A DNA stretch of 64,000 nucleotides, taken from NCBI RefSeq assembly GCF_023638035.1, contig NZ_JAKRVX010000009.1:1-64000 (forward strand), in the 5' to 3' direction. Source of the DNA: Natronocalculus amylovorans. GTDB taxonomy: Archaea; Halobacteriota; Halobacteria; Halobacteriales; Haloferacaceae. A program made the position numbers and the translations under genes. A model generated the notes under the pieces. It had not been told where the DNA came from. It did no database searches and saw nothing but the letters and a program-made list of their open reading frames with translations. Position 1 is the first letter of the stretch. Each line of letters begins with the position of its first letter. Below are positions 2,577 to 36,203 of the stretch, piece by piece.

Positions 2577-4037
2577 ATGAGCGTATTTGGGCATCTTGCA
2601 GATACACATCTTGGCCATCGACAGTATGGACTGCGTCAGCGCGAAGACGATATGGCCTCAACTGCATATGCGACTGTCAAAGAGATGGTCACAGACCATG
2701 GTGTAGAAGCGATCGTTCTCCCCGGTGATCTATTCCATGCTCGTGATATTCGCCCAAAAATCCTTGCTGATGCTGAGCGGGTGCTTGATTCTGTTCCCGA
2801 AGACATTCCAGTTCTTGTTTCACGTGGGAACCACGACGAAAACCTCACACCAAGACAGGTGACATGGTTAAAATATCTCCATCAGAAAGGTAAAATCATT
2901 CTTTTGGAAGCTGATTTGGAGTCAAACAGTGAGGCAGCAGTATTCACTCCACATGATACAGAGAACCTTGGGAGCAGTTCGGGCTTCTACGACCTCGAAA
3001 CTGATGAAGGGCTCGTGCGCTTCTTTGGACTCCAATGGCGCGGTGCACGAGTTGACACTGCTTTGCAACAGGTTGCTGCAGGAATACAAGAAACAAACGA
3101 TTTTCATGGTCAGCCTGATTTCACAGTCTTATTAGCCCACTTTGGCATTGAAGACGAAGTCCCAACGCTTGGTGGTACCGTGACACATGCGGAGCTTCGG
3201 GAAGTCAAAGAGGTTGTTGATTATCTCGCACTTGGGCATATACACAAGCGATATGACTCCGCTGGCTGGATCTATAATCCGGGTTCACCAGAGGCACACA
3301 ACACACGCGAAGGAAGAACAGACTGGGAACACGGTTACTATACAGTTACACTGAGCGATAGTGAGGGTGGAACGAGCCTTTCGCACCGTGTCTCTCACTG
3401 TGAGTCAAAGCGTCGGCCATACTTCACAATCGATTTTGACGTGACGGGGTACAAATCACAAAGTGGACTTGAAGAGGCATTCCGATCGGAGCTCTCTGAA
3501 AGCCAGTATGCGCTCAACAACCATCTTCAAAAACCACTCTATCTGTCCGGTGGCTCGCCACGAGAGCCAATAGTTGATCTCCGTTTCACTGGCACGCTCC
3601 AATTTGATCGTGCTGATTTCCGTACCGGAAAGCTTGCCGAGTGGGCAGAAGAGGAATATGGTGCGTTGTACGTACAGACAAATACGGGGATTCGAACTGC
3701 GAACGTCCAAGCACTCCTTTCAGAGATGGAAGACGGTGATGTATTCGTTGATGGACGGCTGAATACGGCACTTTTGGAGCGACGCGTCTTTGAGACAATC
3801 GCCGAAGAATCCGTGTACAATACTGAGTCGGATGCTGTTGCAGATGTACTGGAGCGGGCACACCATATGGCACAGCGCAACGAGTCTCCAGAAGATATCC
3901 GAGTCTCCGTTACGGAGAAGCGAAGAGAGCTCTTTGAAACCATGGTTGATGATGTTGTGGTTGATCTTCCGGAGGACCCGTTCGTTCGTGATACAAGCGA
4001 ACAGGAAGAGCAAGAGATGGAGGTGCTGCAAGAATGA
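2577..4037 (+). CDS. mre11: Mre11 DNA double-strand break repair nuclease
   Basis: 486 aa. The calcineurin-like phosphoesterase core fills about residues 1-230. Visible metal-binding motifs in order are HLADTHLG (Asp9, His11), LPGDLFH, SRGNHDE, LLAHFG and ALGHIH, all intact. NPGSPEAHN follows, as in archaeal Mre11. The remaining 250 residues form the capping domain and the Rad50-binding C-terminus. A GGAGGTG ribosome-binding site at 2563-2569 sets the start. The stop overlaps the rad50 start by 4 bases. Mre11 is the Mn-dependent 3'-5' exo/endonuclease of the Mre11-Rad50 complex that processes DNA ends. First gene of the five-gene operon that runs to herA. Confidence 0.95.
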   Translation: MSVFGHLADTHLGHRQYGLRQREDDMASTAYATVKEMVTDHGVEAIVLPGDLFHARDIRPKILADAERVLDSVPEDIPVLVSRGNHDENLTPRQVTWLKYLHQKGKIILLEADLESNSEAAVFTPHDTENLGSSSGFYDLETDEGLVRFFGLQWRGARVDTALQQVAAGIQETNDFHGQPDFTVLLAHFGIEDEVPTLGGTVTHAELREVKEVVDYLALGHIHKRYDSAGWIYNPGSPEAHNTREGRTDWEHGYYTVTLSDSEGGTSLSHRVSHCESKRRPYFTIDFDVTGYKSQSGLEEAFRSELSESQYALNNHLQKPLYLSGGSPREPIVDLRFTGTLQFDRADFRTGKLAEWAEEEYGALYVQTNTGIRTANVQALLSEMEDGDVFVDGRLNTALLERRVFETIAEESVYNTESDAVADVLERAHHMAQRNESPEDIRVSVTEKRRELFETMVDDVVVDLPEDPFVRDTSEQEEQEMEVLQE

Positions 4038-33154: not shown

Positions 33155-34372
33155 TTACTCATCCACGTGTGAGGTAGATTTATCGGTTGAATTACCATCT
33201 GTGATCATCGAGTCTGCAGACACTGTTCGAATTGTCTCGTGAATACCTAAAACAAGCGCCGGCACAACGATCATAAATAGATGCTCCTCGATCGGGATGC
33301 CGAACAAGTCATACCCCGTCCGCATTGTAATCTCGAACACGCCCACTTCCAGGGTATACCAGTCCCAGATGTACGCCACAGGGTACAGAGCAGCAATGGT
33401 GTACGCCGCACTGCGAAGCGCATCAGCATGGTACAGCAGGCCAAGCGCAATGGCGCCAAAGAAAATCTCCGTTGCGAGATAGGTGTACGGTCCGAGTACT
33501 GTAATATCTGGGAGCGCGGTCCCGGACAAAGGACGGAACCAGACAGCCACGAACAGGAGCGCCAAAAAAACGTACGCCCCCCGAATCAATAGCATTGTTG
33601 CGATCGTCGGTTCCGCCCGGATTGCGATCAGCACAATCGTTGCAAATGCGAGTGCGGCAAGTGGGGAAGATGGTGGAAAAAACCCACCGATCGTCCCCCA
33701 GAGCACACCCACAAGACCGAGAAACATGAGCGCGCTAGCCAGTCGCCGTGCCGGCGAGGGGCCAAGTAACACGGAGACTGTCTGCTTGTCAATCGATCGA
33801 TCATAGTCGTAATCCTGCTCGTCGTCGATGATTTTGACACCGGCTAATGTAACCAGAAAGACGAGCGCAAATCCGATCGCTGTCGGAGTGAGAGTCGTCG
33901 TCTGGACGTAGAATCCACCGAGGATTGCGAGCATGATTCCGGTCGGATAGCCGAGGGTCGTCGTAATTGGATTCGTATCTAATTGTGGCGCGTGGAGATA
34001 GCCGATGAACCAAGTTGGAAGTGTGATGAGTGCTGCTCCTGGCCCCACGATCACCCCAAGTAAGAGCGTACAGACGGCGAAACTGAGAGTTGCACCAATA
34101 AGTGCAAATCGACAGCCGCGGATCGACATCGGGTGATCGTCGTCTTCTCCTCGCTGATAGAAGTCGATGTAACCGTCTTTGACGTGGGCAGTGTACACGG
34201 CAAAGAACATCGCAAGCATGTGGAGTGCGCCGATGGTAATCGTGAACTCCCCGGAGATAGCAGCACCGAGCCAGGAGGCAGCAAGCGGAGGCAGCATGAA
34301 TACGGGGTGTATTTGCGAGAGCAGCGCCCCGATGTCCGCTTTTATACCGCTTTTGTGTCTCGCGATAGCCAT
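33155..34372 (-). CDS. UbiA prenyltransferase fused to a lycopene cyclase domain
   Basis: 405 aa membrane protein. Residues about 1-290 are UbiA-like with two Asp-rich regions, HVKDGYIDFYQRGEDDD and IIDDEQDYDYDRSID, that bind the Mg-diphosphate of a prenyl donor. Residues about 300-390 form a single lycopene-cyclase-type domain (CrtYc/d class), seen in YIWDWYTLEVGVFEI and FGIPIEEHLFMIVVPALVLG. Haloarchaeal lycopene elongase is UbiA-like, and bacteria that make cyclic C50 carotenoids use UbiA plus such cyclase domains, so a C50 or C45 carotenoid role is plausible. Standard haloarchaeal CrtY has two cyclase domains and no UbiA part. No crt genes adjoin. Confidence 0.8.
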   Translation of the reverse strand: MAIARHKSGIKADIGALLSQIHPVFMLPPLAASWLGAAISGEFTITIGALHMLAMFFAVYTAHVKDGYIDFYQRGEDDDHPMSIRGCRFALIGATLSFAVCTLLLGVIVGPGAALITLPTWFIGYLHAPQLDTNPITTTLGYPTGIMLAILGGFYVQTTTLTPTAIGFALVFLVTLAGVKIIDDEQDYDYDRSIDKQTVSVLLGPSPARRLASALMFLGLVGVLWGTIGGFFPPSSPLAALAFATIVLIAIRAEPTIATMLLIRGAYVFLALLFVAVWFRPLSGTALPDITVLGPYTYLATEIFFGAIALGLLYHADALRSAAYTIAALYPVAYIWDWYTLEVGVFEITMRTGYDLFGIPIEEHLFMIVVPALVLGIHETIRTVSADSMITDGNSTDKSTSHVDE

Positions 34373-34886: not shown

Positions 34887-36203
34887 ATGAGTCAAAAAAG
34901 ATCCGACCGATTTGACCGGCGCACAGTTTTGAAAATGAGCGGAGCAACTGCGATCGTAGCACTGGCGGGCTGTACTGGCGATGGTGAGGCGGACATGGAG
35001 GATAATACGGACGACAACATGGATGACAACACGGCTGCCGACATGGACGACAACATGGACGATGAGGAGGTGGAATTTGTCCTCGAAACCATCAGCACTG
35101 GCGATCCTTTCGCCGACGCAAAGACCGCTGCAGATCACGTCGAAGGGTCCGCGAAGACGCTGGCCGGTGGGTTCGCCGCCGCGCTGGGCCTCGACGGTGA
35201 TTCTGACAGCGAAGCCGCCGAGCTACGCGCCACCCTGTCCGGGCTGCTGCAGGAGCACGTCTACCTCGCCGGCTACACAGTCGACGCCGCCTACAGTTTC
35301 GGCCCCGAGAGCGGTGAGTTCGAACTCGCCGCCGAGGCGCTCGACACTAACTCCGTTGCGCTCGCCGACGTGATCGGCGAACTGGCTGGCGACGACAACC
35401 GCGATGCGTTCCTAAGTTTGTGGCGCGACCACATCGGCTTCTTCGTCGACTACGCGCTCGCGGCCGCCGAAGACGACGACGATGGCCGCAAGGCTGCCTT
35501 GGACGATCTCGACGACTACACCGACGCAGCCGGCGGGTTCTTCGAGAATATTACTGACGGCGAGTTGCCGGCCGAGACCGTCACCGACCACCTTGACGGC
35601 CACATCGACACGCTCGCGGCCGCAATCGACTCCCTCGCTGCCGGCGACGCTAGCGCGTTCGACGACCTGAAGACTGCTGCAGACCACGTCGTGGGAGGTG
35701 GCGGCGTGCTGGCCAGCGGATTCGCCGCCGCGCTTGACCTCGACGGCGACACCGGGTCGGAAGCATCGGAGCTCCGCACGAATCTCGCCACCGGGCTGCA
35801 AGAGCACGTATACCTGGCCGGTATCGCGGTCAAAAACGCCTATGCGGAGGGTCTTGACAGCGGCGAGTTTGAGGCGGCGGCGGGAACGTTGGACAGCAAC
35901 TCTGTACAGCTCGCTGACGCCATCGGCGAACTGGCTGGCGACGACAACCGCGATACGTTCCTGAGCCTGTGGCGCGACCACATCGGCTTCTTCGTCGACT
36001 ACGCCGTCGCCACTGCCGAGAACGACGAGCAGGGTCAGGCGGATGCGATCCGGGATCTCGACGGCTACACCGAAAGCGCCGGCGGGTTTTTCGAGGATAT
36101 CTCCGCCGGCGAGCTGCCTGCCGACGCTGTCACCGACAGCCTACGCGATCACATCACCACGCTGGGCGGTGCCATCGACTCGCTGGACGCGGCCATCAAC
36201 TAG
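34887..36203 (+). CDS. Tat-exported lipoprotein with two copies of an uncharacterised helical domain
   Basis: 438 aa. Tat motif DRRTVLKMSG, lipobox VALAGC and a 35-residue Asp/Met/Asn-rich linker. Then two similar modules, about residues 70-235 and 262-435. Each contains ADHV-EGS/VGG, GFAAAL-LDGD, LQEHVYLAG, LD-NSV-LAD, IGELAGDDNRD and LSLWRDHIGFFVDY in the same order. Similar all-helical LWxxHI-FFVDY repeats occur in bacterial secreted proteins without known function. Base composition is clearly GC-richer than in flanking genes, suggesting recent acquisition. A short hairpin follows the gene. Confidence 0.75.
   Translation: MSQKRSDRFDRRTVLKMSGATAIVALAGCTGDGEADMEDNTDDNMDDNTAADMDDNMDDEEVEFVLETISTGDPFADAKTAADHVEGSAKTLAGGFAAALGLDGDSDSEAAELRATLSGLLQEHVYLAGYTVDAAYSFGPESGEFELAAEALDTNSVALADVIGELAGDDNRDAFLSLWRDHIGFFVDYALAAAEDDDDGRKAALDDLDDYTDAAGGFFENITDGELPAETVTDHLDGHIDTLAAAIDSLAAGDASAFDDLKTAADHVVGGGGVLASGFAAALDLDGDTGSEASELRTNLATGLQEHVYLAGIAVKNAYAEGLDSGEFEAAAGTLDSNSVQLADAIGELAGDDNRDTFLSLWRDHIGFFVDYAVATAENDEQGQADAIRDLDGYTESAGGFFEDISAGELPADAVTDSLRDHITTLGGAIDSLDAAIN

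Follow-up and report, generated by a model that had tools for sequence, protein, structure and literature searches.

A UbiA prenyltransferase fused to a single lycopene-cyclase domain belongs to a co-inherited two-part system of haloarchaea

A gene of Natronocalculus amylovorans encodes a UbiA-family membrane prenyltransferase, here called UbiA-X, and a single lycopene-cyclase domain in one chain. Across haloarchaea, UbiA-X and the single cyclase are an obligate two-part system that is strictly co-inherited, and this pair is independent of crtY and of the bacterioruberin cluster. On sequence comparisons, we give about an even chance to the reading that the two parts are an ancient, haloarchaea-wide enzyme acting in one pathway, in which UbiA-X and a half-size cyclase would make a ring-bearing prenyl lipid other than a carotenoid. 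The pair is annotated merely as a 'UbiA family prenyltransferase' and a 'lycopene cyclase domain-containing protein', and it points to an unrecognised membrane-lipid pathway. Our literature searches for a UbiA-cyclase fusion or a half-cyclase in haloarchaea found nothing.

The fusion gene and its predicted fold

The fusion gene occupies 33155..34372 on the minus strand of the window (the whole 64,000-nucleotide stretch of DNA analysed) and encodes 405 amino acids from ATG to TAA, as defined by its open reading frame and by Pfam and NCBIfam matches. UbiA-X spans residues 1–283 (33524..34372, minus strand) with nine transmembrane helices, as delimited by PF01040, split homologues and Foldseek. 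It is followed by a single CarR/lycopene-cyclase domain of the CrtY C-half/CrtYe type with three transmembrane helices (residues 288–381; 33230..33511, minus strand; TIGR03462/PF18916 and tree) and by a variable hydrophilic C-terminal tail (residues 382–405; 33158..33229, minus strand), in which pLDDT falls and homologues align poorly. Pfam UbiA (PF01040) matches residues 30–251 (E 4.2e-9, 36.5 bits against a cut-off of 34.2), and Pfam Lycopene_cyc matches residues 296–380 slightly below its cut-off (E 1.5e-5, 26.0 bits, cut-off 27). NCBIfam TIGR03462 scored 39.3 against a cut-off of 39.4 on residues 296–376 (E 6.8e-10) and 43.8 bits, above the cut-off, in a whole-genome search; a standalone homologue of the cyclase part reached 52.4 bits on the cyclase profile. 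The first-pass annotation had read UbiA and a single cyclase domain in one chain, and both this reading and the cyclase identity of the C-terminal segment are borne out by these profile matches and by 45 fused sequences. The 44 aligned homologues are 57–76% identical to the fusion protein, and a domain search of the full alignment detected UbiA in 45/45 and Lycopene_cyc in 43/45 sequences. Since both domains recur in this way, the fusion is neither a frameshift nor an assembly artefact; the open reading frame is a genuine fusion of a UbiA prenyltransferase with one lycopene-cyclase domain, a new combination of known domains.

AlphaFold2 modelled the fusion from the alignment of 45 sequences with a mean pLDDT of 88.5 and a pTM of 0.75, placing nine long helices in residues 23–278 and three in 290–393. 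In the PDB, the best Foldseek matches of the UbiA part are UbiA-fold enzymes (6m31, 8djk UBIAD1, 7bpu and 4tq5), and 4od4 was matched as well; UBIAD1 and UbiA homologues of Archaeoglobus and Aeropyrum are among the matches, and the archaeal DGGGP synthase 6m31 is the closest solved fold; a PDB sequence search with the fusion protein returned no match. With PF01040 above its cut-off and a nine-helix fold, the UbiA part belongs to the UbiA superfamily of membrane prenyltransferases.

Conserved acidic residues mark both domains. Aligned against MenA, LyeJ and DGGGP synthase, the first Asp-rich motif, D66-GYI-D70-x6-D77 (34142..34177, minus strand), is an altered N-D-x-x-D-x-x-x-D that reads D-G-x-x-D...G-E-D and departs from the canonical N-D-x-x-D; D66, G67, D70, E76 and D77 are invariant across the 45 fused sequences. 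The second motif is conserved: D183-D184-x-x-D187-x-x-Y-D191 (33800..33826, minus strand), then K196, is invariant in the same sequences and aligns with MenA NNvRDxExD...GKxTLAV. Within the cyclase domain, D337 of WDWY (33362..33364, minus strand) is invariant and aligns to an Asp that is conserved in the CrtY C-half. Consensus comparison with the CrtY halves and CrtYe/Yf revealed a P360-I-E-E363 motif (33284..33295, minus strand), a PxEE common to the CrtY C-half, whose P360, E362 and E363 are likewise invariant.

Other genes in the window include one for a DICT sensory-domain protein (PF10069; 32257-32958, plus strand), convergent to the fusion gene and ~200 bp from its stop, one for a TnpB/Cas12f-like transposon protein (PF07282; 30385-31608, minus strand) and one for a lipoprotein-like protein of 438 amino acids with two similar halves and no Pfam match (34887-36203, plus strand). 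Elsewhere in the genome, a DICT look-alike protein (L094, 2-661, minus strand) is encoded ~4.5 kb from a UbiA gene linked to sdh.

Pairing, splitting and fusion across haloarchaea

Searches of GTDB genomes recovered 79 haloarchaeal loci, many of them fused, and across haloarchaea the pair was found fused in several lineages and split in others. Haloarcula, Halococcus and others carry the UbiA part alone at that locus, and some contigs bear a standalone protein of ~100 amino acids equivalent to the cyclase part. Among the species with UbiA-X is Haloarcula japonica DSM 6131 (L068), a laboratory strain in which the pair is split. We scored UbiA-X by strong match in 394 Halobacteria genomes and counted cyclase domains per genome. 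Because a CrtY contributes a pair of domains and the partner of UbiA-X a single one, an odd number signals one unpaired domain. UbiA-X was found in 311/394 genomes (~80%), and the domain number was odd in 308/311; the 83 genomes without it had an even number in 82/83 and an odd one in 1/83 (Fisher p 5e-80, a descriptive value that treats genomes as independent). Nearly all of the 47 genomes examined closely have both parts, mostly split and far apart, some adjacent. Two small genomes (G018 and G222) carry neither part, and their genus mates carry unlinked copies; as the pair is mostly unlinked, a single deletion cannot account for this joint absence. Among the exceptions to pairing, one genome (G388) carries the fusion gene twice, with one copy seemingly frameshifted, another (G379) is an assembly of 360 contigs, and two (G183 and G231) look like genuine orphans of one part. 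Sampled non-Halobacteria of the same phylum yielded no clear match. Overall, the evidence for a functional linkage of the two parts is unusually strong.

None of the pair's conserved neighbours is tied to carotenoid or quinone metabolism. In several families a class I/II aminotransferase gene precedes split UbiA-X, 64-1951 bp away, and the cyclase adjoins a CBS-domain gene; both arrangements look like vertical synteny and were rejected as functional guides. Acyl-CoA ligases encoded next to certain UbiA genes were set aside too, because their family is large and uninformative. In Haloferax mediterranei, a haloarchaeon in common laboratory use, the megaplasmid pHME505 encodes a UbiA-X without a fused cyclase (3111-3977, L205), followed by a DUF998 protein.

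The pair has been fused or split several times: mapped on a quick tree of 93 UbiA-X domains, the fused and split states require 4 changes, and supported branches force no fewer than 3 of these. Split UbiA-X homologues terminate at about residue 283-285, and standalone haloarchaeal cyclases, ~70% identical to the fused domain, start with M-x-P-D-I at the fusion point. The fusion gene occupies the ancestral UbiA-X place in some species, after the aminotransferase and before YchF. Halosimplex and relatives (L074, L075, L076 and L082) have a gene divergent from a complete UbiA-X in which a remnant of the final helices of UbiA (approximately query residues 208-283) is fused to a cyclase domain, as would be expected from duplication followed by partial loss of the fused copy.

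Strict pairing, repeated fusion and a domain just half of a canonical cyclase could also indicate that the cyclase-like domain is a non-catalytic, obligatory membrane subunit of UbiA-X, providing stability, a substrate channel or lipid binding. We consider this unlikely, since D337, E362 and E363, common to active cyclase halves, are invariant in the 45 sequences and dN/dS is very low.

Relatives of the two parts and the carotenoid question

To place the cyclase domain, we built a tree of both halves of 21 CrtY proteins, bacterial CrtYe and CrtYf, and the single domains. The single domains are monophyletic (100/100) and lie on the C-half/CrtYe side (100/97), and the N-halves of CrtY group with CrtYf. 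No spare partner of the N-half/CrtYf type was found in UbiA-X genomes, which have one cyclase domain besides those of crtY, even if they lack crtY, as 125/311 of them do. Known C40/C50 CarR cyclases use both halves, and the fusion has the C/Ye-type half only. The Dietzia LbtB half has been described as the heterodimer partner of LbtA, and the known C50 cyclases are heterodimers (PMC6393565).

The genome has six UbiA genes, with identities assigned from neighbours and similarity: a heme O synthase of the fused CtaA-CtaB type, a DGGGP-synthase-like gene, a MenA-like gene, the bacterioruberin elongase LyeJ, one adjoining succinate dehydrogenase, and the fusion. Its sole further cyclase domains are both halves of one CrtY adjoining brp. 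The first-pass annotation had raised the question of a separate elongase and crtY; both are present, with LyeJ a gene of its own in a crtD-lyeJ-cruF-crtB cluster, so the annotation's contrast with the usual CrtY and LyeJ holds for this genome and the fusion comes on top of them.

LyeJ scores 430 bits on NF009516, the lycopene elongase family, which the fusion protein failed to match in the NCBIfam search; the matches of UbiA-X were weak MenA and generic ones, those to MenA profiles being far under the cut-offs (27.6 versus 264 and 22 versus 102 bits). The hhalign probability of UbiA-X was 1.7% to LyeJ and 13% to CrtEb, 88.5% to MenA, 89.4% to the sdh-linked UbiA and 89.4% to DGGGP synthase. 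Judged by these profiles, the UbiA part is placed outside the lycopene-elongase family. A first UbiA tree joined UbiA-X with MenA at 98/91, but support fell to 67/6 without long branches and placement with LyeJ/CrtEb was not rejected (p-AU 0.19), so we draw no MenA kinship from trees. A sister UbiA group, 35-43% identical and matched with an hhalign probability of 100%, is often found on haloarchaeal plasmids (L207-L211, L131, L132 and L204). Its conserved gene cluster, with an AMP-binding ligase, cupin, fumarylacetoacetate hydrolase, thioesterase, ADP-forming CoA ligase and IclR regulator, resembles, from its gene content, one for aromatic-acid breakdown.

These relationships bear on the first-pass annotation's proposal of a cyclic C45/C50 carotenoid enzyme, in which UbiA-X would extend lycopene by C5 units and the cyclase would close the ends, as in LbtABC or CrtEb/Ye/Yf. 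The same two kinds of domain are indeed fused in Dietzia LbtBC and in an Arthrobacter locus (L213), and phytoene synthase is present in 389/394 haloarchaeal genomes, so the substrate is nearly always available. However, LyeJ already elongates, UbiA-X fails to match its family, the second half present in the known heterodimeric C50 cyclases (PMC6393565) is absent, and conserved carotenoid-gene (crt) neighbours are missing around the pair.

A natural deletion also bears on this question. In one species without phytoene synthase (G232, compared with its congener G353), a single 3.95-kb deletion has taken crtD, lyeJ, cruF and all of crtB except its start; the flanks, within one contig, are 92-94% identical to G353 (L216, G232:C13:184000-200000, versus L217), and the species is presumably colourless. 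UbiA-X and the cyclase are both retained there as intact reading frames on separate contigs, with dN/dS between the two congeners of 0.11 for UbiA-X and 0.06 for the cyclase. Both parts are thus under purifying selection in this comparison, in which most divergence may predate the deletion; the deletion may be young, too recent for the pair to decay. That the pair is intact and constrained in a carotenoid-deleted genome argues against a C40/C50 carotenoid substrate. The opposite case, a genome (G183) that retains a diverged UbiA-X and has neither crtB, CruF and squalene synthase nor the cyclase, would fit a carotenoid link. On balance, the carotenoid proposal is weakened to the point that we regard it as unlikely, and the annotation's other suggestion, an unrelated lipid-modifying enzyme, fits better, given the 125 genomes without crtY and the deletion.

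Proposed activity and comparison with known systems

Under the preferred reading of a two-part enzyme for a non-carotenoid lipid, UbiA-X would move a polyprenyl chain from its diphosphate onto a non-carotenoid acceptor. This acceptor would most likely be MenA-like, that is, aromatic or a quinol, a best guess drawn from weak profile matches and the surroundings of the sister group. The CarR domain, probably homodimeric because no N-half exists, would then cyclise the polyene end through proton attack by the conserved D/PxEE acids, yielding a ring-bearing prenyl lipid. We infer catalysis by both parts, the acceptor, the homodimer and the product. That the pair instead acts on the isoprenoid chains of ether lipids in the membrane, by DGGGP-synthase-like transfer and then ring closure in the chain, is quite improbable: the closest solved fold is 6m31 and the hhalign probability for the DGGGP group about equals that for MenA, but no tree groups UbiA-X specifically with DGGGP synthase and archaeol with a ring is not known as an established lipid of haloarchaea.

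A more specific and rather doubtful possibility is that the pair represents a new class of prenyl-lipid cyclase, whose product in most haloarchaea would be a prenylated quinone with a terminal ring or another meroterpenoid. As ring closure is an isomerisation, it would leave the mass of the linear precursor unchanged, and mass-based lipidomics would be expected to miss the product. According to PMC13386864, the enzymes that build omega-cyclic menaquinone are unknown, and our search found no literature source showing such a quinone in haloarchaea; if true, the ring-ended quinone reading would supply a first candidate gene for an enzyme of that kind. A half-cyclase obliged to work without its other half would be a mechanistic novelty. 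Counting the pair among carotenoid genes would be a mistake, as it would credit 125 genomes with a lycopene cyclase that is absent there. With fused and split versions in nature, and a natural loss of carotenoid genes, the system lends itself to direct tests.

Within CrtY, the fusion's cyclase domain is closest to the C-half, with which it has Y-x-W-D and G-[LI]-P-I-E-E in common; CrtY, however, has two domains and lies near brp/blh, whereas the single half lies away from brp/blh and also occurs in genomes without crtY. LyeJ resembles UbiA-X in its Asp-rich motifs and as a member of the UbiA superfamily, but differs in NCBIfam family and in the low profile-profile probability given above. The UbiA part has MenA and UBIAD1 among its best, though weak, matches in curated profiles and folds; the first Asp motif of MenA differs from that of UbiA-X, and a MenA-like gene is present separately in the genome.

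Like the haloarchaeal fusion, the actinobacterial LbtBC and CrtYf-CrtEb fusions, whose partner is LbtA/CrtYe, combine one cyclase half and one UbiA-family enzyme per chain (PMC6669644, PMC6393565); in Dietzia CQ4 LbtBC, the cyclase comprises residues 1-134 and the elongase 135-432 (PMC6669644). We also observed a second fusion of the LbtBC type in a C50 carotenoid cluster, not annotated as such, on a 1-Mb plasmid of Arthrobacter sp. StoSoilB13 (NZ_AP024649.1, 282953-291660), with the order crtE-crtB-crtI-crtYe-(crtYf::crtEb). The order of cyclase, then elongase, in LbtBC is reversed relative to the haloarchaeal fusion. The Arthrobacter cyclase half is of the Yf/N-half type, whereas the haloarchaeal one is of the Ye/C-half type, and the Arthrobacter UbiA belongs to the LyeJ/CrtEb group (hhalign 99.8% to LyeJ), outside which UbiA-X falls. 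The Arthrobacter fusion is accompanied by its partner half and a crt operon, and the haloarchaeal fusion by neither. As it departs from the LbtBC design in domain order, in cyclase half and in UbiA subfamily, the haloarchaeal fusion looks convergent.
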